The position numbers and the translations under genes are program-made. From Halopseudomonas nanhaiensis (lineage in GTDB: Bacteria; Pseudomonadota; Gammaproteobacteria; Pseudomonadales; Pseudomonadaceae), in contig NZ_CP073751.1 in the NCBI RefSeq assembly GCF_020025155.1, forward strand, positions 2,669,167 through 2,733,166: DNA of 64,000 nt, written 5' to 3'. Every line of letters starts with the position of its first letter. Position 1 is the first letter of the stretch. Below, in pieces: positions 32,237 to 52,241 of the stretch. The notes under the pieces were generated by a model. The model worked only from the letters and a program-made list of their open reading frames with translations, was not told where the DNA came from and did not search any database.

Positions 32237-32557
32237 TTACGACTGGGAGCGTTTCTCGCGCTCCGCCTTCATGAATGGCTTCGGCGGCGTTCCGGCCTTG
32301 TCACATAGCTTCCACAACTCAACCAGCGCATAGTAGTGGTTCGCTAGGGTGGTATCGGCCAGCTGCATCATCCGTTCACTGCGCCAATAGCGAATCACCT
32401 GTCTGGCACCGATTTGCAGAGGCGAGGTGAGACCCTCCGATGCGCAGAACTGTGCAAACTGGATCATCCTCGCGTGCTGCTGCCTGCGGTTTTTTTTGCC
32501 GCCTTTCTTGCGATAGGCCCTGGTGCGTTGGTGAACTGCCTGGATTAGCGGGTGCAT
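32237..32557 (-). CDS. small integrase-associated protein (SAM-like core-binding domain only)
   Basis: This 106-residue basic protein (RTRAYRKKGGKKNRRQQHARM) has a helical part, QFAQFCASEGLTSPLQIGARQVIRYWRSE, like the N-terminal core-binding domain of a phage integrase, but no catalytic domain. It overlaps the upstream integrase-domain gene by 13 bases and is coupled to it. A split or accessory factor of the larger recombinase is likely. No catalytic tyrosine or arginine set is present. Confidence 0.6.
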   Translation of the reverse strand: MHPLIQAVHQRTRAYRKKGGKKNRRQQHARMIQFAQFCASEGLTSPLQIGARQVIRYWRSERMMQLADTTLANHYYALVELWKLCDKAGTPPKPFMKAEREKRSQS

Positions 32558-33492
32558 CGCAGGCCTCCTACATACGCAGCTACGACGCTGATCCGATTAT
32601 GGCCCAGCTCACGGGAAATGATGCGTCGGGCATCATGATCGATCTGCCGGTCAACAATCCGTCCTGAAACCACCGGCGCGGGATGACCGGTCAGCTCGGC
32701 GTAACGCCGACAGGCATAGGCCGCTCGCAGGTCATGGTATTTGTGGATACGGTGCGCCTTCAGCGTTAACCGCGCTGCCTTGAGTTGCCCCTCTCTAAAG
32801 TTTTTCCAGTCGAGATCCGACGGTATTACTGATCTCCCCTGGCTCTGGACGCTCGCAGCGGTTCGTAGGGCGGCGAACTGATCTATACGGATCACGGGCA
32901 CGGTTCTGGATCTGCCACCTTTGGTGCCGTCAGTCACGTCGATCGAACCGTGCATTTCCGCCTGCCTCAGTGCTTTCGCGGCATCAAGCAGCGAAGCTTC
33001 CTTAAGGCGCAAGCCAAGGCTTTTGGCGAGAAGCGTTACTGCAGCTGCTGCGGTTTGCCCCTTGCTCCGCATGTCCTCGACCGCTGACTGCACATCTGCA
33101 TCATCCATCCCGGACGGGGCGAATCTTCGAACAGCCACGCGCCGCGCGATGCCGCAGTCAGCCACCGGCTTGACTGTGCGCCAAGACCGATTGGCCAAAT
33201 GCATGACGGTATTCACCGCACTAACCAACCGCTGCGCGTACGCCGCGGCGTAGAGGTCGTCTAGCACATCGTCAGCCAGACCCTCTCCGTACGATTTCAC
33301 CAAATCGAAGGTGATCTGTTCGAGGCGTCTGATGCCCAGTTCGTAGGCATGCTCGGCGAACTTCAGCCACGCCTGATCGACACTGGCAATTGACTGGAAA
33401 GAAAGGGACTTCTTAGCTGCTTCTCTGTTGAGCAGCAGGCGCCCCGCTGCTCGCATGTTTCGGGTTCCAACTCCGGCATTTCGCATAGTCAT
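32545..33492 (-). CDS. integrase-domain (Integrase_1-type) tyrosine recombinase
   Basis: This 315-residue protein has a helical N-terminal half (FQSIASVDQAWLKFAEHAYEL, VNTVMHLANRSW) and a catalytic half. Arg I is in KSLGLRLKEASLLDA, the His-Arg box in IHKYHDLRAAYACRRY, and the second His with the nucleophilic Tyr in SRELGHNRISVVAAYVGG. It matches the integrase-domain family found in Pseudomonas and Burkholderia islands. It forms an overlapping pair with the small gene at 32237-32557 and faces the P4-type integrase. Which of the two sets is active is unknown. Confidence 0.8.
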   Translation of the reverse strand: MTMRNAGVGTRNMRAAGRLLLNREAAKKSLSFQSIASVDQAWLKFAEHAYELGIRRLEQITFDLVKSYGEGLADDVLDDLYAAAYAQRLVSAVNTVMHLANRSWRTVKPVADCGIARRVAVRRFAPSGMDDADVQSAVEDMRSKGQTAAAAVTLLAKSLGLRLKEASLLDAAKALRQAEMHGSIDVTDGTKGGRSRTVPVIRIDQFAALRTAASVQSQGRSVIPSDLDWKNFREGQLKAARLTLKAHRIHKYHDLRAAYACRRYAELTGHPAPVVSGRIVDRQIDHDARRIISRELGHNRISVVAAYVGGLRCTR

Positions 33493-34735
33493 AAAAATAC
33501 TTCGATCGATGCATAGTGAGGGGGCCGCCGCCGTACAGTTCGGTCATGAGCTGTCTGACGACCCCGGTTATTTTTCGCTCATGGCCGAAAAACCGTACGG
33601 TCAGTTCTGTTTGCGCTCGATTCGTTCGAGGCGGACGCAAGCGAGTGACGTTAAGTGCGGGTGTCACAGTCCCGGTATTTGCGATTGCCACGTTTCTTTC
33701 TCCTACAGGTGCTGGCCGGGCGCGCTACGCCCCGAGATGGGGACGAGCAACCTATCCGCGGATGAAGTTATGGACGTATGGAAGTGCTTTTCACGCGTTT
33801 TCACGCTGCGAGCGTTGGCTGGAAGCCCCGGGAGTCGGCGTCTCCAGAGGTTTTTTTTCAATCCGTTACTGTCGAGACGATCTCTTCGAACGGCGGGGTC
33901 GCTTAGGCTTCAGTCGCTTGGTTACGATCATAGGATCGGGACACTTGGCATGGGCTTATCGGGGTCGGTAGAACAACCGTTTATTGGAGGCTGGACGGGG
34001 CCAGCACTTAGGGAAGTGAGCAGAAGCTCGTATTGCTAATACATCGATTTGAATAGCCGGACGGACCGGCGTGAGAAAAAGCTGTTTGTTTCGAGCGCCC
34101 AGCTAGCGCTGCTGAGCCTGGATCAGCCAGGACTCGGGTCGAACGTGCGCAGTATAGACGCGCCTCCTGCGGTAGGTGATGGCTGTAATTCACCTTTTTT
34201 CGCAATAGGACCGCTAGCAACCAAAGCGGTGGACGTTTGGGGGCTCGCTATCTGCTGCCTCGTGCCGGCGGGAGTCGGTTTAACGAAGAGCCATCTAGCC
34301 GGATAATGTACTGGTGCGTCGAAGTGTACCTGTAGGTTCACAATGAGTACCTTTCGCTATCGAAACGCATGCACTCGATGTAACGGTTCACGATGAAGGA
34401 CTGACAAAGGTAGCCGTTGTGAACCTACAGGTTCACAACGGCTACCTTTATAGAAATCGGAAGACCCGACCCCGACACTTCCGATCTGCGGTTGACGAAC
34501 CGCTCAGCTTTCATACATTACGTTCCTGCGGAGCCACCAACGACTGCTAGGCTTGTGCTCGATTTTGAGAACTACGCCCTGCCCTCCTACGATTTAACAC
34601 GTTACGCTTCGCCCCTCAGACGAAGTATCACCAGCGCAGCGTGACCGACCTCTCTATCGGATTAGCTCATCCGCAGCGGCACTAGCAGTCCTCCTGGCTG
34701 AATGCCTTTTCTCGTTGAAGGCGAAAGGAGTCGCT
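33493..34735. other. 1.2-kb stretch without a convincing gene
   Basis: Short frames occur on both strands (for example 33413-33691 minus and 34123-34341 minus), but none has a good start, family pattern or neighbour support. The one clear structure is the repeat and palindrome cluster at 34323-34449. The rest may be decayed island DNA. Confidence 0.55.
34323..34449. repeat. operator-like repeats and a 44-bp palindrome
   Basis: Bases 34406-34449 form a near-perfect palindrome: 21-base arms starting AAAGGTAGCCGTTGTGAACC, two-base centre. Its core TGTGAACCTACAGGTTCACA (34418-34437) recurs, inverted and with two changes, at 34323-34342. The half-site GGTTCAC(A/G)ATGA occurs at 34335-34346 and 34385-34396, 50 bases apart. 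This suggests several sites for one protein, either a regulator or a recombinase. Terminator use is possible for the large hairpin but its T-run is short. Confidence 0.7.
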
Positions 34736-34978
34736 ATGCAGCCCAGCCAGACTGAGCGGACTGAACGCACGTTTATGATCTTTGGAATCTGCGCGCTGGT
34801 CGTTCTGCTGACCATCGGAGCCGCAGCCGTCGACGCATTCGTGCGAGGTGTTGCTCCAGACGAAATTGTGCGAGCGCTATTTGCAGGCGAAGCCGCTGTT
34901 CTATTTTATCCAACCACCATGCTTTGCCTTGCATGCTTCTGGATGGTTCTCTATTTGCGGCTGGGACGCGAATCATGA
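34736..34978 (+). CDS. small two-helix membrane protein
   Basis: This 80-residue protein with two membrane helices (FMIFGICALVVLLTIGAAAV and AAVLFYPTTMLCLACFWMVLYL) is separated by a short loop containing DAFVRGVAPDEIV. AAAGGAG lies five bases before the ATG, which favours real translation. I do not recognise the family. It lies just upstream of the GacA box, on the same strand. Confidence 0.6.
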   Translation: MQPSQTERTERTFMIFGICALVVLLTIGAAAVDAFVRGVAPDEIVRALFAGEAAVLFYPTTMLCLACFWMVLYLRLGRES

Positions 34979-34988: not shown

Positions 34989-35006
34989 TGTAAGCCTTTA
35001 CTTACC
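34989..35006 (+). promoter_or_regulatory. GacA upstream activating sequence
   Basis: TGTAAGCCTTTACTTACC matches the GacA box TGTAAG-N6-CTTACA at 11 of 12 defined bases. Its centre is about 65 bases before the inferred start of the small RNA, the spacing known for rsm genes of Pseudomonas. A weak -10 (TAACCT, 35051-35056) without a clear -35 fits an activated promoter. Confidence 0.85.
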
Positions 35007-35062
35007 GGATGCGGTGTCAATCGCTTCTGGTCGAACTGTTCATTCAAGCCTAACCTTGCGCT

Positions 35063-35199
35063 TAGGGATGAGGCAGGAATCCACCGGATAGGGTTACGGA
35101 AAACGCCAGGACGGCAGACCTCAAGGATGACCAAGGACGGATCGGTCAGCTTGGATGACCGGAAGAATCGAAAGAACCTCGCTTCGGCGAGGTTTTTTT
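35063..35199 (+). ncRNA. RsmX/Y/Z-type regulatory small RNA
   Basis: About 137 bases lie between the inferred start and an intrinsic terminator and hold ten GGA motifs (starting at 35066, 35076, 35086, 35098, 35109, 35125, 35135, 35139, 35153 and 35161), mostly 10-16 bases apart. Two are exposed in clear hairpin loops: GCC-AGGAC-GGC (35105-35115) and GGTCA-GCTTGGA-TGACC (35144-35160). Such RNAs sequester the RsmA/CsrA translational repressor. With the GacA box upstream, this is probably part of the Gac/Rsm cascade. Size and layout agree with RsmX, RsmY and RsmZ. The start is inferred, and which paralogue it is cannot be told. Confidence 0.82.
35175..35199 (+). terminator. intrinsic terminator of the Rsm-type RNA
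   Basis: AACCTCGC pairs with GCGAGGTT around a TTCG tetraloop, followed by five further T bases. It ends the GGA-rich transcript and isolates umuD from upstream transcription. Confidence 0.93.
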
Positions 35200-35304
35200 A
35201 TGCGCGATGCGAGAGTAGCGCGGTAGACCATCGCATCAGCACCACTTCGAAACGTTCATCGGCGGCCTCGCGAAGCTCGTTGTGACAAATGCAACGGCGT
35301 TATA

Positions 35305-35320
35305 CTGTATGCACATACAG
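35305..35320. promoter_or_regulatory. LexA box (SOS operator) for umuDC
   Basis: CTGTATGCACATACAG is a 16-base LexA box with perfect CTG and CAG ends, overlapping a TATACT -10-like element (35301-35306) and lying 20 bases before the umuD start. It places umuD, and formerly umuC, under SOS control. Confidence 0.92.
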
Positions 35321-35340
35321 TACTAGCAAAGGCATGCGTC

Positions 35341-35778
35341 ATGAGCACTGCAGATATTCTTGCGCCCCTTGGTAGCTCCGCCATCGAGCTTCCCTTTTTT
35401 TCAGCCCGGGTTCCTGCCGGGTTTCCTAGCCCTGCTCAAGACCACATGGAGCAGTCGATTTCATTGGATGCGTTGCTGGATATCGATGCCCCGCATACCT
35501 ATCTGGTGCGGGCCCATGGCGACAGCATGGTCGGAGCAGGCATCTTCGACGAAGACGTGCTGATCGTCAGCCGCGCCGCCACGCCGAAGCACGGCGACAT
35601 CATCATCGCAGCTATCAATGGCGACACGTTCGTGAAGCGCCTGACGTTCCAGTCAGGCCAGGTCGTGCTCTGTTCAGAAAATCCCAAGTACCCGCCACGC
35701 TATATCCTGGAAGGCGATGAGCTGCTGGTATGGGGCGTTGTGACCGACAGCATCCGCCGGCACGGTAACCATGCCTGA
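35341..35778 (+). CDS. umuD: UmuD/RulA-type SOS mutagenesis protein (S24 peptidase)
   Basis: This 145-residue protein is a LexA-like serine protease that self-cleaves on RecA filaments to give UmuD', a subunit of DNA polymerase V. The cleavage region is in SARVPAGFPSPAQD. The catalytic Ser is in VRAHGDSMVGAGIFD and the Lys in GDTFVKRLTFQ. It overlaps umuC by eight bases. With umuC broken, UmuD here may lack its partner unless another copy exists. Confidence 0.95.
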   Translation: MSTADILAPLGSSAIELPFFSARVPAGFPSPAQDHMEQSISLDALLDIDAPHTYLVRAHGDSMVGAGIFDEDVLIVSRAATPKHGDIIIAAINGDTFVKRLTFQSGQVVLCSENPKYPPRYILEGDELLVWGVVTDSIRRHGNHA

Positions 35779-36013
35779 CCGTGCCATAGCTCTTATTGAC
35801 TGCAACTCGTTCTATGCTTCATGCGAAAGAGTTTTTCGGCCCGATTTGCTTCGGACCCCTATCGTTGTGCTAAGCAACAACGATGGCTGCGTCATTGCCC
35901 GGTCAGCCGATGCCAAGCCGTTCGTGAAAATGGGTGCGCCGTATTTTCAGATCAAGGACGTATTGCGACAGCACGGCATCCTGGCCTTCTCCAGTAACTA
36001 CGAGCTGTATTAA
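35771..36013 (+). pseudogene. umuC: umuC 5' fragment, interrupted by mobile element
   Basis: The first 80 residues of the Y-family polymerase UmuC/RulB are present: LIDCNSFYASCERVFRPDL (with a metal-binding Asp), VVLSNNDGCVIARS and ILAFSSNYELY. The frame then meets a TAA at once, inside the element end. The missing remainder, beginning GDMSERVMS, resumes in frame at 55929. The fragment alone would lack most of the palm, the thumb and the little finger, so it is inactive. Confidence 0.95.
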
Positions 36014-36069
36014 GTTAAGTGGAATGCTTTTGAGCTAGTCTGATTTCGTTGACGCTCAGGGGACGCCCC

Positions 36070-37089
36070 ATGACCACTCTGCCTTTGCACGCTCAAGTGT
36101 TAACTCGCCATCCCAGTGTTCAAGAGTGGCTGGAGCTACTGGGTAATCTGGGGCGTGCGCCGGCCACCCTTGACGCCTATGGCCGTGGCCTTTCGCATTA
36201 TTTATTACATTGCGAAGGACGCGGGTTGAGACCCGAATTCGCGACATTCGAACAGGTCACGCTCTACATCCGTGAGCTGTTACCGGGCGCAAAGAATGCA
36301 GTAGCAAATTCGACCTTGCAGCAACGACTCACCGCCATCAGGTTGTGGTACGACCACCTGGTTTTCCAGGGGCTTCGCAAGCAAAACCCTGTCCCTCGTG
36401 GGCAACATGGTCGGCTGTTACAAGTACCTGGACATGAAGGGTTCGTCAGGGGCCTAGTCCCACGGCTAACTAAGCTGCCGCAGATTCCGACCGATGAGCA
36501 ATGGCGTCACTTTCTCGGTATTGCGGCCAGGTCGTCTATCCGTGATCGGCTCATGCTGTCGCTGGCGTATTTTGGGGCTCTCCGCCGCTCCGAGTTGGTA
36601 GCTTTGCGCATTGAAGATTTAGACGTTGCACATCGCCTGATTTCGGTTCGGGCAGAAACGACCAAGGGCAAACGCAGCCGTGTTGTGTGCTATAGCCCAA
36701 ACATTGCACCCACCTTAATTGAGCATCTATATGCTCTTCGCGGCGCGGGCTGGATAAGGGGTTCGTTGTTTCGATCTGAGTCGGACCGTAATCGAGGCTC
36801 GTCACTGACCCGTTGGACGTGGAGTAAAACGGTCGAAGGGTGGGCCAGGGAAGCGAACCTACCGCACCTGAGCACGCACACCTTTCGCCACCTTCGGCTT
36901 ACCCATCTGGCCCGTGCTGGCTGGAAGCTTCATGAATTAACCACATATGCTGGGCATCGAGACCCCAAGACTACTTTGATTTACCTTCACCTATCGGGCG
37001 CGGATCTGACTGCAAAGATGGCGCATTCCGTGGGCAGTCTGGATGCTCGCATGGTCTCTGAACTCTTCGAGCATCAGGCATCGCAATGA
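36070..37089 (+). CDS. XerC/TnpA-like tyrosine recombinase
   Basis: This 339-residue recombinase starts at the ATG at 36070 with GGGGA seven bases upstream; a TTG at 36049 is less likely. The core-binding domain starts LTRHPSVQEWLELLGNLGRAP. All catalytic residues are present: Arg in LAYFGALRRSELVALRIEDLD, His-x-x-Arg in STHTFRHLRLTHL, and His with Tyr in TYAGHRDPKTTLIYLHL. It ends in a four-base overlap (ATGA) with the larger recombinase, the arrangement of Tn554 tnpA-tnpB and of xerC genes in rulB elements. Confidence 0.9.
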   Translation: MTTLPLHAQVLTRHPSVQEWLELLGNLGRAPATLDAYGRGLSHYLLHCEGRGLRPEFATFEQVTLYIRELLPGAKNAVANSTLQQRLTAIRLWYDHLVFQGLRKQNPVPRGQHGRLLQVPGHEGFVRGLVPRLTKLPQIPTDEQWRHFLGIAARSSIRDRLMLSLAYFGALRRSELVALRIEDLDVAHRLISVRAETTKGKRSRVVCYSPNIAPTLIEHLYALRGAGWIRGSLFRSESDRNRGSSLTRWTWSKTVEGWAREANLPHLSTHTFRHLRLTHLARAGWKLHELTTYAGHRDPKTTLIYLHLSGADLTAKMAHSVGSLDARMVSELFEHQASQ

Positions 37090-39242
37090 CCGCTCCCTCC
37101 GTCACCCCTTATGTTCCGTTCGATGCGAGCCAGTACGAACGTCAAAGCGACCTATCGAATCTGGAGCTGACCATACCTTCAAATCGCCTTCACCGCTCAG
37201 ACTGGAGCTACCTCGAAGCCGAGCTCCCCGGGCTCATGCGGCCGCTGGCTGATCTAGCGGCTCATAGCGGCGTTTCTCAGCGACTCGCGATCTCGTCGGT
37301 GGGAGCCATTCTGTGGAACGTTAGAAAGACTGGTATACCCTACTGGCATTGGTCTGAACCGCAGTGGATGACTCTGCTTCATGGTCGAGCGGGGTCACGG
37401 CCGTATCTCGCTTCCGTCGCCTACCACCTTGGCGGTTTTCACACCCCGCAGCGTATCGCCAAATTCCGGCAGCCGGCCATATACGCGTCTGTTATCTTCG
37501 GCCATGAAGTGTTCAGACATGAGCACGCTCGCTTGAGCCAATCCTTGAGATCGCTGGGCTACGCTGCCCGCCATCTTGAGCAGTTCCTTTCCAGTGTGCT
37601 GGGAGCCTTGATGTTAGAAAACGGCGATCCGCGACTGGAGACGTTTACTGAGGAACTGCTGCTCAAAGGCCAACAGCATCGAAGCGAAGGTATCGCGAGA
37701 TCAGTCGGTAAGGTGTCTCACGGCCTCGCTGCCATGGGAATTTTGGCGAAACCTTTGCGCATGCGAGGCTATATCTCTTGGCGGGAAAAAAGCATCGAAG
37801 GTATCGACGCTACTTGGACAATGTGGTGTCGCCGTTGGCGAGAAACCTCCACCTTACGCCCCCGCACACGTGAAAGTAATTACAGTTTGATATTGAGAGT
37901 CGGTGTCTGGCTAGCGCGGGAGCAGCCAAGCATTTCCGCGCCGACCGATTGGAGCATGTCCACTTGCGCTGCGTTTATCGGTGCTGTTGACCGGATGACG
38001 GTCGGTGAGTGGGCTTTGGAGTCGGCAAAGGGAACGCAGCTTAAAGGACTTGGCCAACCTATCGCTGCCAACTCCAAGCGTGGCTTTCTGCATGCCTTGC
38101 GACGCTTTTTTACAGATTTCGAACTCTGGGGCTGGGGGCGTCTGAAGTTTAGTCCGCGTCATCACTTGGCCACGCCGCGATCCGTGGCGTTTAACTCGGG
38201 CGTCAACCCCCGCGTTATTGACGACTCGACTTGGCTCAAACTGATTTGGGCGAGCCTAAATCTCGAACGTAAAGATTTACTTTCAGAGATTCATTATCCC
38301 CTATCGATGGTACAAGCCATTGCTGTGGTATGGACTCACGCGGGCTTGCGCAGCAATGAAATCATGCGGCTGGACAAAGGGTGCGCGCATCCTCAAACCA
38401 GTGATGTGGTGCACGAGGATGGAACCGTCGTTCCAGCAGGGACCTTATGCTATCTCGACATTCCTGCCAGCAAGACATTCAAAGCGTTCGTCAAACCGGT
38501 AGCAGTGGCCGTGAAGGAGCGCATCGACGCCTGGCTGGCGAATCGACCTACCAATCAGGCCGCATTGCTCGATGAGCGAACCGGGGAGAAAGTCTGCTAC
38601 CTATTCCAGTTTCGAGGCAAGCGCATAGGCTCCGGTGTCATCAATGGCACCATCATTCCGATGCTATGCGCCAAGGCAGGTGTACCACTGGAGGACAGTC
38701 GCGGTCGAATCACCAGCCACAGAGGGCGTGCCTCCGCAGTGACGGCGCTTGCCAGCGTCCCTCAAGGCATGTCGTTGATTGAGCTGATGCAGTGGTCGGG
38801 CCATAGCTCGCCAACTTCGACGTTACACTACATCCGAATTCGGCCAACCAAGCTGGCGGCATCCTTCGTTAAAGCCGATCAAATGGCGCACATGGTTTCC
38901 GTCTTGATCGACCATGAAGTAATTGCACGCCATTCAGCTGAACCCTACACCTTCTACGACCTGGGCGACTCGTACTGTTCGAATCCTTTCTGGAGCAGCT
39001 GTCCACATCGTATGGCTTGCGCGGGCTGCGATTTCAACTTGCCGAAGGCCAGCGCTAAAGCTCAAGTGTTGGAGAGCAAGGCGTCTGCGAGAAGATATCT
39101 CGAAACGGTGCCATTGACAGCTGAAGAGCGAGCGATCGTCGAGGGCGACTTAGAGAAGCTGAACGGCCTCATCCGCAAGCTCGACAACGTGCCAACCTTG
39201 GATGGAAGAACGCCAGCGGAAATAGGTAAGACGGAACGATAA
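37086..39242 (+). CDS. large tyrosine recombinase with Cys-rich tail (Tn554 TnpB-like)
   Basis: This 718-residue protein has a long N-terminal region of no clear fold, then a catalytic domain. Arg is in VVWTHAGLRSNEIMRLDKG, His-x-x-Arg in RITSHRGRASAVTALA, and His with the likely nucleophile in QWSGHSSPTSTLHYIRI. After it comes a cysteine cluster (SYCSNPFWSSCPHRMACAGC), a probable zinc site found in TnpB of Tn554-type elements. It is coupled to the smaller recombinase by a four-base overlap. The pair probably acts together in insertion and excision at umuC. Confidence 0.88.
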   Translation: MTAPSVTPYVPFDASQYERQSDLSNLELTIPSNRLHRSDWSYLEAELPGLMRPLADLAAHSGVSQRLAISSVGAILWNVRKTGIPYWHWSEPQWMTLLHGRAGSRPYLASVAYHLGGFHTPQRIAKFRQPAIYASVIFGHEVFRHEHARLSQSLRSLGYAARHLEQFLSSVLGALMLENGDPRLETFTEELLLKGQQHRSEGIARSVGKVSHGLAAMGILAKPLRMRGYISWREKSIEGIDATWTMWCRRWRETSTLRPRTRESNYSLILRVGVWLAREQPSISAPTDWSMSTCAAFIGAVDRMTVGEWALESAKGTQLKGLGQPIAANSKRGFLHALRRFFTDFELWGWGRLKFSPRHHLATPRSVAFNSGVNPRVIDDSTWLKLIWASLNLERKDLLSEIHYPLSMVQAIAVVWTHAGLRSNEIMRLDKGCAHPQTSDVVHEDGTVVPAGTLCYLDIPASKTFKAFVKPVAVAVKERIDAWLANRPTNQAALLDERTGEKVCYLFQFRGKRIGSGVINGTIIPMLCAKAGVPLEDSRGRITSHRGRASAVTALASVPQGMSLIELMQWSGHSSPTSTLHYIRIRPTKLAASFVKADQMAHMVSVLIDHEVIARHSAEPYTFYDLGDSYCSNPFWSSCPHRMACAGCDFNLPKASAKAQVLESKASARRYLETVPLTAEERAIVEGDLEKLNGLIRKLDNVPTLDGRTPAEIGKTER

Positions 39243-39398
39243 TCACGACATGAACGTAACCGGCAGCATGACAGGGCGAACGGCCTTGCCAGGGTCTGGC
39301 ATTCATGCGGGCTTGGGACAGTGGTTAGCATCGAATCTAGAGACCCGACCACGCATAAGCGAACTATCTTCCATGCGAAAACAGAGACCGGATGTTGC

Positions 39399-39656
39399 TT
39401 AATCCCAGTCAAGGCGCCCACCGAAAACCGGTAGGGAAACGACGGCTTCGGTCGGAAGCGCAGTCCCTGCGCTTAGCCCATAGAGCACATTCTCTAACCT
39501 GCCAACTCGCAGCACATCCCGTTCGGTCGGATAGTGGCGTAGAAGTCGGTTAGCTTGCTCCCTCAACGACTCGTGAACAGTGGGATCAGCGAAAACCTGC
39601 TCCAGAAATTTCCGTGTTTCAACCACGGCGAGACTGCGTTCGTATGGCAGGGTCAT
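39399..39656 (-). CDS. BPSL0761-family small protein (copy 2)
   Basis: This 85-residue protein begins MTLPYERSLAVVETRKFLEQ, with REQANRLLRHYPTERDVLRV at about residues 31-50. It is clearly related to the protein encoded at 29567-29857, sharing the MT(M/L)PxER start, the ETRxFL box and the LLRHYP motif. The role is unknown. It is convergent with the recombinase genes, in the recombination module of the element and not in the copper cargo. Confidence 0.7.
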   Translation of the reverse strand: MTLPYERSLAVVETRKFLEQVFADPTVHESLREQANRLLRHYPTERDVLRVGRLENVLYGLSAGTALPTEAVVSLPVFGGRLDWD

Positions 39657-39894
39657 TTCCCCTCCAAATTATTCATGCCAATTTGATGGCTGCCCCATTT
39701 CGAAACATGGGGCCCGCGCTGTGAAACGATTTCGTAGCTTTCTGTACCGGCTGCTCCATCAGGCGAGCAAAGATCCGTTTTTGGCCCCGCATATCGTGAT
39801 GATCCGCAGATTACACAATCGTAAGGATTCGAACAGCTTGCTGTCAGCCTCGTAACGCTAGCCTAGACACATTCCCAGACATGAGGTGACCCCA

Positions 39895-40198
39895 ATGAAA
39901 AACCTGTTTCGAGCACTTATTCCCCTAGCTTTCATCGTCGTGTCTCCGGCGCTCATTGCCGAAGACGGAAGTGATTATGCTTTAAATAAAGCGCCGTCTG
40001 CCCGAGCGCCCCAGATGATCCAAAGTTCATCGCAGCCACGCCAGCAGCTCAACGACGTCGAGAGGCAACGAACATCCCATGAAAGACGGAATGATGATGG
40101 GCATGATGGACAAAGGCATGATGTCCGAGATGCGCGATTTGATGAAAGATTGTCGGGAAATGATGCACAGCATGCAGACTGACAAGGCGGCAGAATAA
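39895..40198 (+). pseudogene. secreted Met-rich protein, frameshifted
   Basis: The first frame gives a signal peptide (KNLFRALIPLAFIVVSPALIAEDG) and about 50 mature residues, then becomes coding nonsense (ERQRTSHERRNDDGHDG). From about 40050 the +1 frame continues with a typical metal-binding Met-rich tail, MKDGMMMGMMDKGMMSEMRD and CREMMHSMQTDKAAE, ending in TAA at 40198. A one-base indel near 40050-40079 is the simplest reading, unless it is a sequencing error. Intact, it would be a small periplasmic copper-binding protein of about 100 residues. A terminator hairpin follows directly. Confidence 0.65.
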
Positions 40199-40217
40199 AG
40201 CCGGTACCGCTTGAATG

Positions 40218-40248
40218 AAACAGGGGCTCCAGACCGGAGCCCCTGTTT
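40218..40248 (+). terminator. intrinsic terminator after the Met-rich gene
   Basis: AAACAGGGGCTCC pairs perfectly with GGAGCCCCTGTTT around a five-base loop. The T-run is only three bases plus mixed CGTCGTCT. It lies 20 bases after the Met-rich frame's stop codon. Confidence 0.8.
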
Positions 40249-40330
40249 CGTCGTCTATGATGATGGTGTCGGCTCTGCTAGCTCAGCACGTGGCTCCTGC
40301 TTGTCTCATCACTCTGGCGGAGGAACAGTC

Positions 40331-40792
40331 ATTAACAAGCACGCCGCGTTGAACGCCCCTGAACTCCACATCGCGATCTTCGCTTTCCTGCTGCACTTTG
40401 TCTGGGAACTGATGCAGCTTCCCCTGTTTGCGGGCTTCGATGACGTTCATTATTTTACGGTCATTCTACATTGCACCAAAGCCACCGGCGGCGACGTCTT
40501 GATCTCGCTTGCAGCTTTCTGGTCAGCTTCTGTGGTCGCAAGGTCGAGGTTCTGGTTTGTTGCGGTGCAACCTCCCGCTCTCATCATTTTCCTTGCGTCC
40601 GGACTGCTTATCACGATCGTCTTCGAGCTATTGGCTACCGGCCCCTTGCAACGTTGGGAGTACGCCAAAGCCATGCCCTTGCTCCCTTTCATTGAGGTAG
40701 GCTTGTCGGCAGTCGCTCAATGGATCGTATTGCCCCTGGTGCAACTATGGTTCGTACGAAGGCAGGTGCTAGGCGGTTGGCAGCGAAGCTAG
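40331..40792 (+). CDS. membrane protein of unknown function (possible ATT start)
   Basis: From 40331 the product is 153 residues with about four membrane helices: IAIFAFLLHFVWELMQLPLF, ISLAAFWSASVVA, PPALIIFLASGLLITIVFE and FIEVGLSAVAQWIVLPLVQLWFV. The frame is open from 40211, but that part is the upstream terminator hairpin, so it cannot be the true start. GGAGGA sits eight bases before an ATT codon at 40331; a TTG at 40349 is the other choice. The helix-one motif HFVWELMQLPL recurs in bacterial membrane proteins of unknown role. It lies between the Met-rich gene and copS, all on the same strand. Confidence 0.55.
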   Translation: MNKHAALNAPELHIAIFAFLLHFVWELMQLPLFAGFDDVHYFTVILHCTKATGGDVLISLAAFWSASVVARSRFWFVAVQPPALIIFLASGLLITIVFELLATGPLQRWEYAKAMPLLPFIEVGLSAVAQWIVLPLVQLWFVRRQVLGGWQRS

Positions 40793-40878
40793 AAGCCATG
40801 GAGAGCGATGTGACATGAGCGGGCGCTACCGCACTCGAGCAGAGTTCGAAAGCTAATTTGAAAGAAAGGGCGAACGGA

Positions 40879-42255
40879 ATGAGCAGATTGTCGCTGCGTG
40901 GAAGAATGGCGCTTCTTTTCGTGATCGTCGTGACGGCAGTCCTGAGCTTGGCCGCTGTCAGCTTCGATTATTTCTGCCGTCTGCACTTTAAGCAACAAGA
41001 CGCAGCAGTGCTTGAGGGCAAGGTTTCAGCTCTCAAATCAATCCTCACGCGGGGGAGCAGCCTCGAATCTGAAATGGTTTCGGATATCCACCAGTTAGTC
41101 GATACCTCATTCGGCTTCGCCGCAGCGATCTTGGCGGGGGATAGAGTCGTGTATTCACATCACAACTTGTCTGAAGAGCTAGCGGCTTCACTCGGTCCCA
41201 GGCAGGGCGAGCGATGGCTGCTACAGGTTGGCCCCAACCGCTACAGTGGTATGACTGAACGGATCGAGGGATGGGCTGACGGAGAAGGCGGCACCATTCA
41301 CCTGGCTATGGATGTCACGCATCGCACCCATTTCTTTGAAATGATCCGGCGGTGGTTTTTCTATACGCTGATTATCAGCGCAGCGCTCAGTGGCGCGCTT
41401 GGCTTTGTCTTCATTCGTCGAGGCCTCGAACCGATTTCGAGCCTGTCCCGAACCTCCTCCACCATCACCGCAAATTGTCTAGATACACGGATTTCAACCG
41501 AGTCGGTGCCATCTGAACTTCACGAACTAGTGGATAACTTCAACGCCATGCTAGAGCGCCTCGATCAGTCCTTTCTGAGGCTGTCGAACTTCTCAGCTGA
41601 TATTGCCCACGAGCTACGCACTCCGCTCAACAGCATGCTAACCCAGACAGAAGTCGCTCTTTTGAAGGAAAGAGACGGTGCTGACTACAAAGACGTCTTG
41701 TTCTCGACCCTCGAGGAGCTTCGTCGCATGTCGCGAATGGTCGACGACATGCTTTTTCTAGCCAAGGCCGACAACGGCATGATCACTCCCGATTTTGAGG
41801 ATCACGACCTGAGCGCGATTGCTGCAAGCGTGCTGGAGTATTACGAGTACGCCGCAGATGAGAAAGAGATAAAACTGGCGCTGCATAGCACTGGGAGCAC
41901 ACAGGTGAAGGGGGACAATCTGATGCTCCGCAGAGCGATCTCGAACGTGATGTCCAATGCTGTCCGCTACGGCGAGCCCGGCTCGATCGTCGACATGAGA
42001 GTTTCTAACGCTCGCGAGTGGGTGCGCCTTGAAGTGAGCAATCAAGGGCCAACGATCGCGCCAGACCACATCGATAAGCTGTTTGACCGTTTTTACCGTA
42101 TCGATACGGCCAGGCGAGAGGGCAACACGCTGAACGCCGGGCTCGGCATGGCGATTACGCGCTCAATTGTCGAGGCGCACGAAGGCTCGATTGACTGCCA
42201 CTCGGCTGATGGTATCACGACCTTCCAAATGAAGTTGCCGATAGCTGTTGGCTGA
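40879..42255 (+). CDS. copS: copper-sensing histidine kinase CopS/CusS
   Basis: This 458-residue kinase has a first membrane helix MALLFVIVVTAVLSLAAVSF, a periplasmic sensor of about 140 residues and a second helix FFYTLIISAALSGALGFVF. A HAMP domain, the His box FSADIAHELRTPLNSMLTQTE and a HATPase domain (ISNVMSNAVRYGEPG, NAGLGMAITRSIVE) follow. It belongs to the heavy-metal kinase group, which senses periplasmic copper or silver. Its partner copR is 1.5 kb away on the opposite strand, with an ATP-grasp gene between, unlike the usual copRS operon. Start at 40879, with AAGGG upstream. Confidence 0.88.
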   Translation: MSRLSLRGRMALLFVIVVTAVLSLAAVSFDYFCRLHFKQQDAAVLEGKVSALKSILTRGSSLESEMVSDIHQLVDTSFGFAAAILAGDRVVYSHHNLSEELAASLGPRQGERWLLQVGPNRYSGMTERIEGWADGEGGTIHLAMDVTHRTHFFEMIRRWFFYTLIISAALSGALGFVFIRRGLEPISSLSRTSSTITANCLDTRISTESVPSELHELVDNFNAMLERLDQSFLRLSNFSADIAHELRTPLNSMLTQTEVALLKERDGADYKDVLFSTLEELRRMSRMVDDMLFLAKADNGMITPDFEDHDLSAIAASVLEYYEYAADEKEIKLALHSTGSTQVKGDNLMLRRAISNVMSNAVRYGEPGSIVDMRVSNAREWVRLEVSNQGPTIAPDHIDKLFDRFYRIDTARREGNTLNAGLGMAITRSIVEAHEGSIDCHSADGITTFQMKLPIAVG

Positions 42256-42379
42256 CGTTGGGTAGGTCTGTCTTTGTTCCATGCGGCTCGGCACCCGGGC
42301 TGCTGTTCCGCCTGGCGGCGGCGTAATCCCGAGAGTTCGTCGGGCTTGCAACTATGCGCGCCCGACATTAAGGATGCAT

Positions 42380-43657
42380 ATGACGAAAACCGATGATTCC
42401 TCATTCCAGACCAAGTCGAAGAAGCTCAACCAGCACTGCGTCTGCGCCACCCTTGATAGGCCCAGGGTGCTGCTGAACCTCGCGGACCTGTTGGGCGATG
42501 CGCAAGAGCAGCTAGTTTCAAGCCCGACCTGGCACCAGTTCTTTTCAGACGTAGCGGTGTTCGTGCCTGAACGAGACCTGGATTGCATGATGGAGACTGT
42601 CCAGGCTTTGGAGACGGCTGCCGCTCTGCCGGGGTTTCGTCAGAAGGTTCTCGGCCGAGCGCCGCAGACTGCGCAGATCAATCCCGGCCCTGTGGGTGCT
42701 TTCATGGGCTATGACTTTCATCTAAGCGAAGACGGGCCCCGTCTTATTGAAGTTAACACTAATGCTGGAGGTGCTTTCCTCAATGCCACGCTGGCCCGAG
42801 CGCAACTGCAGTGTTGTAGCGGCGCTGCACGGATTGCTTGGTCCGATGATTTTGACCGGCAGGTAATAAGCCAGTTCGAGAGTGAGTGGCTTTTACAGCA
42901 CGGCAATGGAAAGCCGCGGCGCATAGCCATCGTAGATGACCAGCCTACCGAGCAGTACCTGTATCCTGAGTTTCGCTTGGCCCAGCAACTGTTCCGAAAC
43001 GCCGGAATCGATGCACTCATCGTGTCGCCTTCGGAACTGAGATCGAGCGCCCGCGCGTTGTATCACAACGATAACAAGATCGACCTGGTCTACAACCGCC
43101 TGGTGGACTTCTCTCTGCAAGCTCCGGAACACGCTGTCTTGCGCTCAGCCTGGCTGGATGGGAGCGCTGTTATAACGCCAAACCCGTTTACACATGCCTT
43201 GTTCGCCGATAAACGCAACCTGATCGAGTGGTCCGATTTCGACAGCTTGCAAGAGTGGGGCTTGAGCGGTGAGAATATTGAGTTACTTCGCCGCGGTGTC
43301 CCGCGCACTGTCTCGGTGAATGCGAGCAACGAGGCGGAGCTTTGGCAACAGCGCAAGAACTGGTTCTTCAAGCCGGTGGCAGGTTATGGCAGCAAGGGTG
43401 CCTACCGTGGCAGCAAGCTCACCAAAAACACGTATGCCCAGATCCTTGATAGCGACTATATCGCTCAGACCTTCGTTCCGCCGTCAGAGCGGGTTGTCAT
43501 GGTCGACGGTGAACGGCAAATGCTCAAGGTGGACGTGCGGCTGTATACCTATCGCGGGAATCTGATACTCGCCGCGGCGCGACTGTATCAAGGCCAGACG
43601 ACCAACTTTCGCACACCGGGCGGCGGCTTCGCGCCGATTTTGATCAGCGCGAGCTAG
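42380..43657 (+). CDS. ATP-grasp ligase-like protein of unknown substrate
   Basis: This 425-residue cytosolic protein starts at the second ATG (AAGGA five bases upstream). It has ATP-grasp character: FMGYDFHLSEDGPRLIEVNTNAGGAF in the first half, then WFFKPVAGYGSKGAYRGSKL (a probable nucleotide-binding loop) and MLKVDVRLYTYRGNLILAAARLYQGQTTNFRTPGGGFAPI at the end, with the acidic and Asn residues of a metal-ATP site. Such enzymes join a carboxylate to an amine, as in glutathione or peptide synthesis. Placed between copS and copR, it may make or modify a copper-binding molecule. That role is inference; no substrate can be named. Confidence 0.65.
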   Translation: MTKTDDSSFQTKSKKLNQHCVCATLDRPRVLLNLADLLGDAQEQLVSSPTWHQFFSDVAVFVPERDLDCMMETVQALETAAALPGFRQKVLGRAPQTAQINPGPVGAFMGYDFHLSEDGPRLIEVNTNAGGAFLNATLARAQLQCCSGAARIAWSDDFDRQVISQFESEWLLQHGNGKPRRIAIVDDQPTEQYLYPEFRLAQQLFRNAGIDALIVSPSELRSSARALYHNDNKIDLVYNRLVDFSLQAPEHAVLRSAWLDGSAVITPNPFTHALFADKRNLIEWSDFDSLQEWGLSGENIELLRRGVPRTVSVNASNEAELWQQRKNWFFKPVAGYGSKGAYRGSKLTKNTYAQILDSDYIAQTFVPPSERVVMVDGERQMLKVDVRLYTYRGNLILAAARLYQGQTTNFRTPGGGFAPILISAS

Positions 43658-43705
43658 CCAAAAACAGGTTTAAGCAAACGCGGAGACCAAGCGTAAGACC
43701 GGGAC

Positions 43706-44389
43706 CTAAGCAGGGCCCGTTCCGTCGATAAAATAGCCCATGCCTCGCACGGTATGGATCAACTTGACTGGAAACTCATCGTCAATTTTTGCCCGTAGCC
43801 GGCGAATAGCCACCTCAATGATATTGGTGTCGCTATCGAAATTGATGTCCCACACTTTCGAGGCGATCAGCGATTTGGACAACACTTCGCCGCGTCGGCG
43901 AAGCAGCAGTTCGAGCAGCATGAATTCCTTGGCAGTCAGATCGATCCGCCGCCCACCGCGCTCCACTCTTCGCTTGAGGAGATCCAATTGCAAATCCTCG
44001 ATGGTAAGGATCGTCTGAACGGTGCCGCCGTTTCCTCGACGTAGCAGCGACCTGACCCGAGCAAGGAGTTCGGAGAACGCAAATGGTTTAACGAGATAGT
44101 CGTCTGCGCCCAGCTCAAGGCCTTTCACTCTATCCTCAACCCGATCTCTGGCAGTGAGAAACAACGCAGGGGTTTCCCCGCCTGCGGTACGCACCTTTTC
44201 GAGTACTTGCCAGCCGTCTAGTCCTGGCATCATCACATCGAGCACAAGTAGATCGTACTGTTCACCGAGCGCCTGATGGGCCGCATCCGTCCCGTTGGTA
44301 ACCAGATCCACGGTGAACCCGGCTTCGGTCAAGCCCTGTTTAAGGTAAATGCCCGTTTTCGGTTCGTCTTCGGCAACTAGAATTTTCAC
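43706..44389 (-). CDS. copR: copper response regulator CopR/CusR
   Basis: This 227-residue OmpR-type regulator has a receiver with acidic residues in [13 protein letters not shown], the phospho-Asp in [14 protein letters not shown] and the Lys in [13 protein letters not shown]. The C-terminal winged helix ([41 protein letters not shown]) is typical of the heavy-metal group. It should bind the three TTACA/TGACA-type boxes found in this element. It is convergent with the ATP-grasp gene and transcribed in the same direction as the copper storage gene. Confidence 0.92.
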
Positions 44390-44531
44390 AATTGAGCTCC
44401 GAGGCAGTTAGCTCATTGTGCCGATGTCGGAGGGGACATTCCATTGCCTTTCAAGAAGGTAATCCGGCTCAAAGCATAACGGGGCCGGCTGACGGGGCGC
44501 GTCCGGGATCTGACCCGAACGCACCAGGCAA

Positions 44532-44861
44532 TTAGCCAGCCATCCGTTCGCATTCATCGGCGCAGGCCATGCAGGCTTCTGCGCAGCGTTGGCAATGGTC
44601 AGCTTCATGTTTTTTGCACTCTTCGCCACAGGCCCGGCAGATCTGAGCGCAGAGGCGGCAGATGTCTGCGGCGTACTCGCTGTCTCGAGCCATAAAGTTG
44701 GCAGCGAGCTGGCAAATTTCGGCGCAATCCATGTCCAGCTTGATGCACAGAGCCATCATTTTCACATCGTCTTCGCCTAGGCACGCAGCCGAACATGTCT
44801 GGCAAACGATCGCGCAGTTGCTACAGGCCTGGATGCAGGATTGAAATTTGGCATTCATCAT
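44532..44861 (-). CDS. Csp-type four-helix copper storage protein (cytosolic)
   Basis: This 109-residue protein has 19 cysteines in CxxxC-type spacing (CIQACSNCAIVCQTCSAACL, CAQICRACGEECKKHEADHC, CAEACMACADECERM). It matches the DUF326 copper storage proteins, in which a four-helix bundle lined with Cys thiolates binds many Cu(I) ions. There is no signal peptide, so it is the cytosolic Csp3 form. Two ATG codons are adjacent at the start, with GGAGAA upstream. A CopR box lies about 100 bases upstream, which suggests copper induction. Confidence 0.9.
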   Translation of the reverse strand: MMNAKFQSCIQACSNCAIVCQTCSAACLGEDDVKMMALCIKLDMDCAEICQLAANFMARDSEYAADICRLCAQICRACGEECKKHEADHCQRCAEACMACADECERMAG

Positions 44862-44963
44862 TGGTGTTCTCCACAGGTGAAAGTAGGTTCGTGCGGCCTG
44901 ACTAACCAGGCCACACGTTTGTCGACCCCTGTGGCGGCGAAGAAGTTTGCGCCGTACGTCTAG

Positions 44964-44979
44964 CTGACAGAAATGTAAT
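44964..44979. promoter_or_regulatory. CopR box 1
   Basis: CTGACAGAAATGTAAT matches the pseudomonad cop box TGACA-N5-GTAAT. It lies about 100 bases upstream of the Csp gene (minus strand) and about 130 bases before the plus-strand terminator at 45096-45118, so it may serve either strand. Confidence 0.8.
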
Positions 44980-45095
44980 TTTTCGATCAGCGTAGTGACA
45001 TGTTTGATTTGATATTGTCTACGCGAGACTGCTGTTCTGACGGGCCGACGGTCCGGTTTGTATCTCTGCTACGTTGTACTCCTTCTTAGAGATCC

Positions 45096-45118
45096 GCGCC
45101 CGCTGGGCGCTTTTTTTT
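45096..45118 (+). terminator. intrinsic terminator with no coding gene upstream
   Basis: GCGCCC-GCT-GGGCGC is followed by eight T bases. On the plus strand nothing coding lies between CopR box 1 and this terminator, so it either ends a short non-coding transcript started near box 1 or shields copA from read-through. Confidence 0.85.
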
Positions 45119-45144
45119 ACGGCTCCCTCACCCTCGACACGAAG

Positions 45145-45160
45145 CTGACATAAATGTAAT
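45145..45160 (+). promoter_or_regulatory. CopR box 2, upstream of copAB
   Basis: CTGACATAAATGTAAT differs from box 1 at one base (a T for the G after TGACA). It lies about 90 bases upstream of the copA start codon and is the likely CopR site for the copAB operon. Confidence 0.85.
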
Positions 45161-45248
45161 CACACGCCCGTTAGCGATGTGGCACATTTCAGCTCATCGC
45201 TTCGCTAAGCCGCGAGTAACCTGATTTTCGAGCAGGGGGCACCAAGCC

Positions 45249-47027
45249 ATGCAATACAAGACGTCGAGACGAACCTTTGTGAAGGGATTAGTCGCAACAG
45301 GACTGTTCGGGGGCCTTGGGCTGTGGAGATCTCCAGTCTGGGCATTGACCAGTCCCGGCCAGCCAACCGTCCTTGCCGGAACCGAATTCGACCTGGTCAT
45401 TGGCGAAACGCCTGTGAACATCACGGGCAACCCGCGGACTGCGCTCACCATCAATGGGACGATTCCTGGCCCTTTGCTGCGCTGGCGGGAGGGCGATACG
45501 GTCACCTTGCGGGTGGCCAATCGGCTCCAAGAAGACACATCCATTCATTGGCATGGAATCATTCTCCCAGCGAATATGGATGGCGTCCCAGGCCTGAGCT
45601 TCCATGGCATCGCTCCGGACGGAATGTACGAGTATAAATTTCAAGTAAACCAGCACGGCACCTACTGGTACCACAGTCATTCAGGTTTTCAGGAACAGGC
45701 CGGGGTTTATGGTCCGTTGGTCATCGACGCTAAAGAACCAGAGCCATTTGAGTACGACCGCGACTACGTCGTCATGCTGACAGACTGGACGGACGAGAGC
45801 TCGGACGAAATCATGGCCAAGCTGAAAAAGCAGTCCGATTATTACAACTTCCATCAGCGTACCGTCGCTGACTTCATTCGAGATGCCAAGCAGGACGGGC
45901 TGGGCGCGACGCTCGCCGACCGCAAGATGTGGGCGCAGATGAAGATGAGCCCAACAGACCTGGCTGATGTGAGTGGCTACACCTACACCTATCTCATGAA
46001 TGGCCTAGCGCCGAACGGCAACTGGACGGGATTGTTCAAGCCCGGCGAGAAGCTTCGTCTGCGCTTTATTAACGGTTCGGCCATGAGCTACTTCGACGTT
46101 CGTATTCCAGGGCTAAAGATGACTGTGGTGGCCGCAGACGGGCTCCACGTCGAGCCGGTTAGCGTTGACGAATTTCGCATCGCGGTGGCCGAGACTTATG
46201 ACGTAATCGTCGAGCCTGAGCAGGAACAGGCGTACACCATCTTCGCTCAGTCGATGGATCGCACGGGGTTCGCTCGTGGCACCCTAGCCGTTCGCGAGGG
46301 CTTGAGCGCACCCGTTCCCGAGACAGATCCCAGGCCTGAATTAAGCATGCAGGACATGGGAATGGATCACGGAAGTATGGCCGGGATGAGTCATGACTCT
46401 AACCAGCCGATGTCTGACATGGACCATGCCCAGATGGGGCACGGCTCGATGGACCACGGTCAGATGGGAGCAATGGATCATGGGGCCATGGGTGCAATGC
46501 AGCAGCATCCCGCCACCGAAGAGGGAAATCCTCTGGTCGATATGCAGACCATGACGCCGACGCCAAGGTTGGATGACCCGGGGCTTGGGTTACGCGACAA
46601 CGGCCGACGTACTTTGACTTATGGCGACCTGAGAAGCGCCTTCCCCGATCCGGACGGGCGCGAGCCGAGCAGAACCATCGAACTGCATCTTACCGGTCAT
46701 ATGGAACGGTTCTCGTGGTCGTTCGATGGCGTCGAGTTTTCCGATGCAGAGCCGCTGCGTCTTACTTACGGTGAGCGAGTCCGCATTACTCTGGTCAACG
46801 ACACGATGATGACCCACCCGATCCACTTGCATGGAATGTGGAGTGACCTGGAAGACGAAAACGGCGACTTCCTTGTACGCAAACACACGATCGACATGCC
46901 ACCGGGCTCCAGGCGCAGTTATCGCGTCACGGCCGATGCATTGGGCCGCTGGGCCTATCATTGTCATCTGCTGTTCCATATGGAAATGGGCATGTTCCGT
47001 GAAGTCCGTGTTGATGAACGAGCCTGA
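45249..47027 (+). CDS. copA: multicopper oxidase CopA (PcoA type)
   Basis: This 592-residue periplasmic oxidase, exported by the Tat pathway (TSRRTFVKGLVATGLFGGLG, ending SPVWA), oxidises Cu(I) and binds extra copper. Copper ligands are in SIHWHGIILP, GTYWYHSHSG, HPIHLHGMWSD and YHCHLLFHMEMGMF, covering the T1 and trinuclear centres. A Met/His-rich insert (MDHGSMAGMSHD, MDHGQMGAMDHGAMG) lies at about residues 370-420, as in CopA of Pseudomonas. The gene is followed after 12 bases by copB. It should not be confused with the copper ATPase, also called CopA in other systems. Confidence 0.96.
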   Translation: MQYKTSRRTFVKGLVATGLFGGLGLWRSPVWALTSPGQPTVLAGTEFDLVIGETPVNITGNPRTALTINGTIPGPLLRWREGDTVTLRVANRLQEDTSIHWHGIILPANMDGVPGLSFHGIAPDGMYEYKFQVNQHGTYWYHSHSGFQEQAGVYGPLVIDAKEPEPFEYDRDYVVMLTDWTDESSDEIMAKLKKQSDYYNFHQRTVADFIRDAKQDGLGATLADRKMWAQMKMSPTDLADVSGYTYTYLMNGLAPNGNWTGLFKPGEKLRLRFINGSAMSYFDVRIPGLKMTVVAADGLHVEPVSVDEFRIAVAETYDVIVEPEQEQAYTIFAQSMDRTGFARGTLAVREGLSAPVPETDPRPELSMQDMGMDHGSMAGMSHDSNQPMSDMDHAQMGHGSMDHGQMGAMDHGAMGAMQQHPATEEGNPLVDMQTMTPTPRLDDPGLGLRDNGRRTLTYGDLRSAFPDPDGREPSRTIELHLTGHMERFSWSFDGVEFSDAEPLRLTYGERVRITLVNDTMMTHPIHLHGMWSDLEDENGDFLVRKHTIDMPPGSRRSYRVTADALGRWAYHCHLLFHMEMGMFREVRVDERA

Positions 47028-47039
47028 GGAGTCGCAGCG

Positions 47040-48347: not shown

Positions 48348-48356
48348 GATCGAACA

Positions 48357-49040
48357 ATGAAAAAGATAGTGGGCACGTTAGTGGTGGCGTTAGCAGTGTT
48401 CGCGAGCGCTGTCGCCGGAGCTGTGTATTTTGGCGTGGTTAGTGTAGCGGCGGACGAGCCGCACGCAGAGATTGTGCATGGTTTTCTTGAGGCGGCTCGG
48501 AACCGGTCCATAGCGGTTCGCGCGGAGTCGATCGAAGTTCCCAATCTCGAAGGTGCCGATAAGGTGCAGGCAGGCTCGGGTAACTACGATGCGATGTGTG
48601 TCAGTTGCCATCTCAAGCCAGGACAGACCGCGTCGGAGCTTAGCAAGGGGCTGTATCCGTCTCCGCCCAACTTGACTCAGACCGGAGTCAGTGGGGACCC
48701 CGCGAGAACATTTTGGGTCATCAAACATGGCATCAAGGCTTCCGGCATGCCCGCCTGGGGACGAAGCATGGAAGATCGGTACATCTGGGAAATGGTGGCA
48801 TTTTTGGGCGAGTTACCGTCCCTGAGCGCTGAGGAGTACCGGAAGTTAGTTGCCGCCAGTGGAGGCCACTCGCATGGTGGAGGCGAAACCGCACCACACG
48901 GTGATCATCATAGCGGCGAACAAGGAGCGGATGGCCACGCAGAGGACCATCACGGCGCGGCTGAAGGCGGTCAGCCTTCCCAAATGCAGCCGAATACACA
49001 CATCCATGCCGATGGCAAGGAACATTTACATGAGCATTAA
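48357..49040 (+). CDS. c-type cytochrome with His-rich tail
   Basis: This 227-residue protein has an N-terminal signal anchor (IVGTLVVALAVFASAVAGAVYFGVV) and one heme c site, YDAMCVSCHLKPGQ, with the distal Met probably in KASGMPAWGRSM. The last 60 residues are rich in His (GGHSHGGGETAPHGDHHSG, HIHADGKEHLHEH) and likely bind copper. Nine bases after copB, it probably belongs to the copAB operon, perhaps passing electrons to or from periplasmic copper proteins. The same layout (anchor, then heme domain) recurs in the gene at 51687-52229. Confidence 0.88.
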   Translation: MKKIVGTLVVALAVFASAVAGAVYFGVVSVAADEPHAEIVHGFLEAARNRSIAVRAESIEVPNLEGADKVQAGSGNYDAMCVSCHLKPGQTASELSKGLYPSPPNLTQTGVSGDPARTFWVIKHGIKASGMPAWGRSMEDRYIWEMVAFLGELPSLSAEEYRKLVAASGGHSHGGGETAPHGDHHSGEQGADGHAEDHHGAAEGGQPSQMQPNTHIHADGKEHLHEH

Positions 49041-49479: not shown

Positions 49480-49521
49480 GCCGATCCCGCAGGCGTCGAT
49501 CTGGTTTTTCGGACAGATGCG

Positions 49522-50517: not shown

Positions 50518-50616
50518 CTCACCTTCTCGGTTGTCCAGGCGGAGTCCACCTCCACCTCAACGGCGAAGTTTGGCTCCGATTTGAGTATTCATGGTCGGGC
50601 TCGCCCCGCACGTACG

Positions 50617-52229: not shown

Positions 52230-52241
52230 AGGAAAAACTCT

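Follow-up and report, generated by a model that had tools for sequence, protein, structure and literature searches.

The window, by which we mean the whole stretch of 64,000 nucleotides of Halopseudomonas nanhaiensis DNA that was analysed, carries near its middle a candidate gene for a small RNA of the Rsm type. The gene lies between an integrase module and a umuDC locus, and the features of this part of the window are as follows.

32237..33691, minus strand: integrase module, consisting of a protein with a Pfam match to PF12835 and two short ORFs that match no Pfam family
34736..34978, plus strand: upstream neighbour, an ORF of 80 aa to which no function was assigned, whose single relative in 297 other genomes of the family is weak (E 6.4e-4)
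34989..35006, plus strand: upstream activating sequence (GacA box), TGTAAG-N6-CTTACC, matching the consensus at 11 of 12 positions, with a gapless alignment to the boxes of RsmY-type genes
35051..35056, plus strand: putative -10 hexamer, TAACCT, in the same register as TAGTAT/TAACAT in RsmY-type promoters
35063..35199, plus strand: candidate Rsm-type small RNA of ~137 nt with ten GGA motifs, its start placed from the -10 hexamer
35066..35082, plus strand: predicted hairpin with a GGA in its loop, overlapped by an alternative stem at 35078-35095
35105..35115, plus strand: short hairpin predicted by folding, GCC-AGGAC-GGC
35142..35162, plus strand: hairpin predicted by folding, with a GGA in its loop
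35170..35199, plus strand: intrinsic terminator, recognized from sequence and folding
35341..35778, plus strand: umuD; homology to the region upstream of the host's second copy begins at ~35245, past the RNA

A first-pass annotation of this DNA had proposed a GacA-controlled, RsmA-titrating RNA here, and the layout it described was borne out. The box, which we scored against what we take to be the GacA box consensus, is found at 34989-35006 with 11 of its 12 bases. The start that had been put 65 bases downstream of the box agrees with our probable start at ~35063, 57 bases 3' of the box end and ~65 from its middle. The ten GGA motifs described as lying within about 100 bases were counted as ten in 98 bases, from 35066 to 35163, with first-G positions 35066, 35076, 35086, 35098, 35109, 35125, 35135, 35139, 35153, and 35161. 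The terminator consists of a GC-rich hairpin at ~35170-35194 and a T run that ends at 35199, closing an RNA within the 100-200 nt typical of the Rsm/Csr class. Hairpins with GGA in the loop had also been claimed, and in our models four of the ten GGA could be placed in loops by a simple stem rule, with at most three looped simultaneously because two of the four stems overlap. Examples of upstream activating sequences for GacA boxes are given in excerpts of PMC4353343.

Taken singly, these features are weak and none is decisive; it is their joint order and spacing that is strong. Apart from the box at 34989, the 64-kb window has no site with at most two mismatches; shuffled sequences of that length contain a mean of 0.84 such sites, and the box by itself is therefore not significant. 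The candidate is the only place on either strand of the 64 kb with at least nine GGA per 110 bases; when the counting window is widened to 140 bases, two further places also reach nine. Of 200 sequences of 64 kb generated by a first-order Markov model, 6 contained ten GGA within 110 bases, and four loop-capable GGA were equalled in 30 of 1000 shuffles. The candidate has many GGA motifs with several in loops, as expected for the Rsm/Csr class, with the loops being predicted and five of the motifs mostly paired: in ensemble folding, three GGA were unpaired with a probability of at least 0.6 and five had a probability below 0.2. The fold z-score of -1.79, with equal stability in 11 of 200 shuffles, amounts to a moderate excess only. 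Terminators like the one at 35170-35199 are found at many unrelated sites, including in phages.

To set these features against those of other loci, we gathered Gac-box sites from the host genome (one contig of 3.65 Mb) and from its genus, Halopseudomonas. The host genome has five sites with no more than one mismatch, versus two for a reversed control, and four of the five, the candidate included, are followed by a GGA-rich stretch. Across 37 congeneric genomes, the one-mismatch pattern gave 93 sites versus a sum of 73 for the reversed control. Because this is near background, we kept only those sites with an adjacent GGA cluster. The 41 loci compared are therefore hand-picked Gac-box matches with a GGA cluster, from which duplicates and two loci (L106 and L108) were excluded. 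By upstream flank, 29 of the 41 form an RsmY-type group that includes a host locus, L036. A second conserved group has its box far upstream and comprises eight loci by upstream flank and nine by downstream flank, among them the host's L039; we label this group RsmZ-like, on the assumption that this is what it represents. The remaining loci are single, and two of these come from the host: the candidate itself (L038) and L037. The candidate's flanks matched none of the other 40 loci, so that it lacks the neighbours of the conserved RsmY-type genes.

The spacing within the candidate gene is that of the conserved loci. For this comparison we used 30 loci, namely the 28 RsmY-type loci of other genomes together with the host's L036 and L037. 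Beyond +40, the distance from the box to the first GGA is 59 bases in the candidate and 60-62 bases in the 30 comparison loci, and the register of the candidate's -10 hexamer matches theirs. The candidate thus has the fixed box-to-start distance of the Rsm/Csr class, the start itself being a predicted one. A sequence profile built from the first 96 bases of the 28 RsmY-type loci, with host copies excluded, found the candidate at E 7.1e-6 in a search of both strands of 96 kb; the same profile found an RsmY-type gene of another genus at E 4.7e-7. With the box removed, the candidate was recovered at only E 1.9. As the 28 loci had been found by their box, the profile signal reflects box and layout, not the sequence of the body. 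Five congeneric RsmY-type genes in this collection (L095, L099, L107, L110, and L023) are greatly expanded and contain extended runs of GGA.

These comparisons bear on whether the locus could be a GGA-rich intergenic stretch that happens to be joined to an unrelated terminator and to a Gac-like box arisen by accident. Every feature is, singly, just mildly unusual and one-mismatch boxes are near background in the genus, as such an accident would have it. But the joint order and spacing agree with those of 30 loci, with deviations of one to three bases, and the matches to Rfam and to the profile coincide in position. We therefore regard a chance assembly as very improbable.

The best Rfam family for the candidate is RsmY (RF00195), at 33.7 bits and E 1.2e-6. 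The covariance search that had been suggested therefore returned the expected kind of family, but with a score short of the RsmY gathering score of 57 bits, and the candidate is not classed as RsmY. Low scores are usual in this lineage, because the host's conserved RsmY-type locus, at 42.3 bits, is also under the gathering score, and L037, the host's other accessory copy, scores 29.7 bits. In a genome-wide ranking by the RsmY model, the candidate comes second, behind the conserved RsmY-type locus. When matches with E up to 10 were accepted, 13 of 14 unrelated control genomes also had some match, all under the cut-off, and we therefore gave weight only to the top few matches. Part of the RsmY score is supplied by the terminator, which also lifts istR to 24.5 bits. 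A covariance model of our own, built from 22 RsmY-type RNAs (21 genus loci and L021 from another genus, host copies excluded), gave the candidate 28.0 bits over 35159-35198, which is mostly terminator, and gave two chance places in the window 24.1 and 23.2 bits.

The host has the partners that such an RNA would need. Its genome encodes a GacA-type regulator (303 bits versus a curated cut-off of 280) and one CsrA/RsmA gene. Besides the candidate, there are three Gac-box Rsm-like RNAs: the RsmY-type L036, the RsmZ-like L039, and L037. The last of these (G000:C1:1858992-1859243, minus strand; ~13993-14244, minus strand, in L134) is a second accessory Rsm-type RNA; downstream of it and in the same orientation lie two ORFs labelled by eye, one KaiC-like and one histidine-kinase-like. 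L037 resembles the candidate in being a Gac-box and GGA RNA at an unshared site of the same genome, but differs from it in having a clearly RsmY-like 5' region (E 2.9e-13). The match that the candidate has in common with the other host copies is of terminator size only.

To ask how widespread the candidate is, we searched for it, minus its terminator, with a BLAST-type method and found a full-length match in none of 397 other Pseudomonadaceae genomes. This search covered 398 genomes of the family, the host included, with two candidates scored per genome. Outside the host there were seven weak matches, 23-38 bases long; six of these (L304-L309) have no Gac box with a GGA cluster, and the seventh is L023. 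In a search of 96 genomes, the host and 36 congeners among them, with the terminator included, we found terminator-sized matches and, in the RsmY-type locus L023, one short match. Close copies in plasmids were rejected, with a single 21-base match at E 2, as were close copies in phages, where the matches fall in the terminator. Exact-pattern scans, which would miss diverged copies, found no close copies in viral contigs or in the genome_contigs collection. At BLAST sensitivity, the search results thus support the candidate being an accessory gene, since no full-length match exists in the 397 genomes and the homology upstream of the other umuDC copy stops before the RNA. The same two findings uphold the earlier description of the region as accessory. 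RNAs of the Rsm kind are well known, and the candidate copy itself was found in none of the other genomes searched.

The setting of the gene, described earlier as lying between island remnants and an interrupted umuDC locus, was confirmed: the gene is flanked by integrase genes on its left and by the split umuDC on its right. An insert of ~20 kb (~36010-55905) splits umuC; two tyrosine-recombinase genes stand at its start, and it also contains genes for copper resistance (a multicopper oxidase, a P-type ATPase, and a CopRS-like pair). An intact umuDC copy lies elsewhere in the host genome. This second copy is 89.8% identical over 35245-36009 and lacks the upstream RNA. We rejected the idea that the candidate is a piece of the umuDC promoter region, as the homology between the umuD copies begins at ~35245, beyond the RNA. 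We also rejected the idea that the second umuD copy retains a trace of the RNA: a 22-base resemblance there scores 20.3 bits, versus 24.3-26.3 bits for the top ten of 50 shuffled targets. Upstream of umuD, at 35305-35320, there is a LexA-box-like sequence, CTGTATGCACATACAG, so labelled by what we take to be the LexA-box consensus.

On the other side, the palindromic repeats GTGTACCTGTAGGTTCAC and GTGAACCTACAGGTTCAC (34324-34436) adjoin the integrase module and may be recombination sites. Similar repeats also lie beside the integrase relative in a congener, G020. In that genome, an integrase module 75% identical to that of the host is inverted and adjoins a umuD remnant, and the RNA is absent. 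The integrase had matches in 62 of 298 genomes, from which we fetched 19 stretches, several of them ending at contig ends. None of the 19, of which 18 are at loci other than that of G020, contains a Gac box with a GGA cluster.

The RNA could, in principle, be cargo of a mobile element that bends the Gac/Rsm output of the host to the element's benefit. Its position, flanked by umuDC and by an integrase module that has palindromic repeats, its absence from the second umuDC copy, and the presence of a separate Rsm-like family in viral contigs (see below) would all suit such a role. However, the same neighbours never recur with it. We rejected a recurrent cargo of the neighbouring integrase on the basis of the 18 other related-integrase stretches, some cut at contig ends, without a Gac-box/GGA RNA. 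A recurrent pairing of an Rsm RNA with umuD was likewise rejected, with no such RNA in the fetched flanks, of up to 4 kb, of 64 umuD loci from the genome_contigs collection, many of them from distant phyla. A looser scan of umuD loci of the genus gave matches at L081 and L082, with two and three box mismatches. Recurrence with the same element in other genomes, the mark of mobile cargo, was thus not seen. Because no second occurrence delimits a moving unit and the 18 integrase stretches were negative, mobility of this copy, which had been raised earlier as a possibility, is not supported. The region is a patchwork in which the candidate gene is rare, and no carrier can be named. A role as mobile cargo seems doubtful to us, though well short of negligible.

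Rsm-like RNAs do appear to occur on viral contigs. Scanning IMG/VR for a Gac box followed at a fixed range by GCAGGA, we matched 31 stretches. Two of these, L202 and L213, were judged real by their GGA count and terminator, L212 was kept as a lead, and the others were taken as chance. At position 1874 of L212 there is a Gac box without mismatches; GGA motifs and a terminator with GGA in its loop come after it, and this may be another Rsm-type RNA. A pattern built from L202 and L213 found nine viral contigs in total (L202, L213, and L233-L239), of which L235 and L236 are near-identical across the RNA region. Each of the nine contigs has its best box 77 bases upstream of the RNA core, with 0-3 mismatches. 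Among the 398 genomes of the family there were five matches (L240-L244) in four genomes, all of the genus g15; two of them, L243 and L244, look decayed by our reading of their sequences.

We compared neighbour proteins for six of the nine viral contigs, leaving out L233, L236, and L238. Five of the six (L202, L213, L235, L237, and L239) have a phage-repressor match near the RNA, and L202 and L213 have replication genes there as well; for L234, the one protein compared matches a partition family. Of the chromosomal copies, L246 has three neighbours without a phage match and L245 one neighbour with a weak phage match, so a prophage setting for these copies is not supported. Eleven copies of the family align well with slight covariation: two-sided changes were seen in 6 of 30 predicted pairs, most frequently in the terminator. 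Rfam RsmY scored 30.0 bits, below the cut-off, on one copy, and no copy of the family reached an Rfam gathering score. We found no sequence relation between this family and the candidate. Rfam also identified two Proteo-phage-1 RNAs and one RT-15 RNA on these contigs (L234 5613-5694, L239 10150-10227, and L235 9441-9622). Among the papers listed for this question, no title or opening of an abstract describes a phage-borne Rsm RNA. The earlier suggestion that Rsm RNAs travel with incoming elements is therefore favoured as a general idea by the viral-contig family, and finds no support in the candidate copy.

A further question is whether the candidate is still active. It could be a decayed or silent Rsm gene that worked when it was acquired or duplicated and has since become unexpressed or unbound. 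Its box has one mismatch, its -10 hexamer is weaker than that of most comparison loci, and it occurs in one genome only, with insertion remnants around it; the two decayed-looking copies among the five chromosomal members of the viral-type family would set a precedent. Against this, the candidate retains its ten GGA, its spacing, and its terminator, some of which we would expect to be gone in so diverged a relic. We consider decay unlikely.

We conclude that the locus is probably an accessory gene for a GacA-switched Rsm-type RNA that acts as an RsmA sponge. Its reading as a Gac-controlled Rsm-type RNA is well supported by the predicted layout, the comparison with conserved Rsm loci, and the host's GacA and RsmA genes. 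These also sustain the initial proposal of a Gac-controlled, RsmA-titrating RNA, except for its travel with mobile DNA. Weighing on the other side, part of the RsmY score comes from the terminator, the profile leans heavily on the box, five of the ten GGA are mostly paired, and there is no homologue to show selection. The likelihoods we assign to the sponge and its rivals sum to more than one, as a role as mobile cargo is compatible with it. Phosphorylated GacA would bind the box at 34989-35006 and turn on transcription at ~35063, and the resulting RNA of ~137 nt would end at its own terminator near 35199. This RNA would present several GGA sites, at most three of them in predicted loops simultaneously, to the host's single RsmA/CsrA, and could thereby pull RsmA off its mRNA targets. 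Added to the RsmY-like and RsmZ-like RNAs and L037, the candidate's dose would be expected to increase the amount of sponge made for a given Gac signal.

How strongly a Gac signal frees RsmA targets is set by the Rsm RNA dose. With an extra Rsm copy in a variable region, the mere gain of a gene could make strains of the same genus differ in this dose. Should the viral-contig family prove functional, a phage could detect the host's Gac/Rsm output and also increase it. We tentatively suggest, as a somewhat speculative generalization, that pseudomonad mobile DNA repeatedly carries its own GacA-switched RsmA sponges, the candidate being one case and the viral-contig family another. If this is true, sponge-bearing elements would sense Gac signalling in the host and strengthen its output, possibly for timing lysogeny or for shifting host defence and lifestyle genes.

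Among known systems, RsmY (RF00195) and the conserved RsmY-type genes of Halopseudomonas share with the candidate a GacA box, the box-GGA spacing, repeated GGA motifs, and a GC-rich terminator. The candidate differs from RsmY in its sub-gathering score, its locus and neighbours, and a body that cannot be confidently aligned. It is also like RsmX and RsmX-2 in being an extra GacA-box-led Rsm RNA besides RsmY and RsmZ (excerpts of PMC7911923). According to the same excerpts, P. syringae has up to five rsmX copies, and in P. brassicacearum RsmX-2 depends on GacA and its overexpression restores gacA phenotypes. The rsmX copies listed there are in tandem at one locus, whereas the candidate is solitary in a variable region. 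By analogy with RsmX-2, a similar GacA dependence and effect may hold for the candidate too. The insert in umuC resembles GInt and integron-like elements, for which insertion in rulB is reported in parts of PMC5385486 and PMC4542609. Finally, the portions of PMC9928087 and PMC7366521 considered here describe mobile DNA that acts on the Gac/Rsm pathway, through the plasmid regulator RsmQ and through csrA genes of plasmids and phages. The products of those genes are RsmA-like proteins, whereas the candidate is a predicted sponge RNA.
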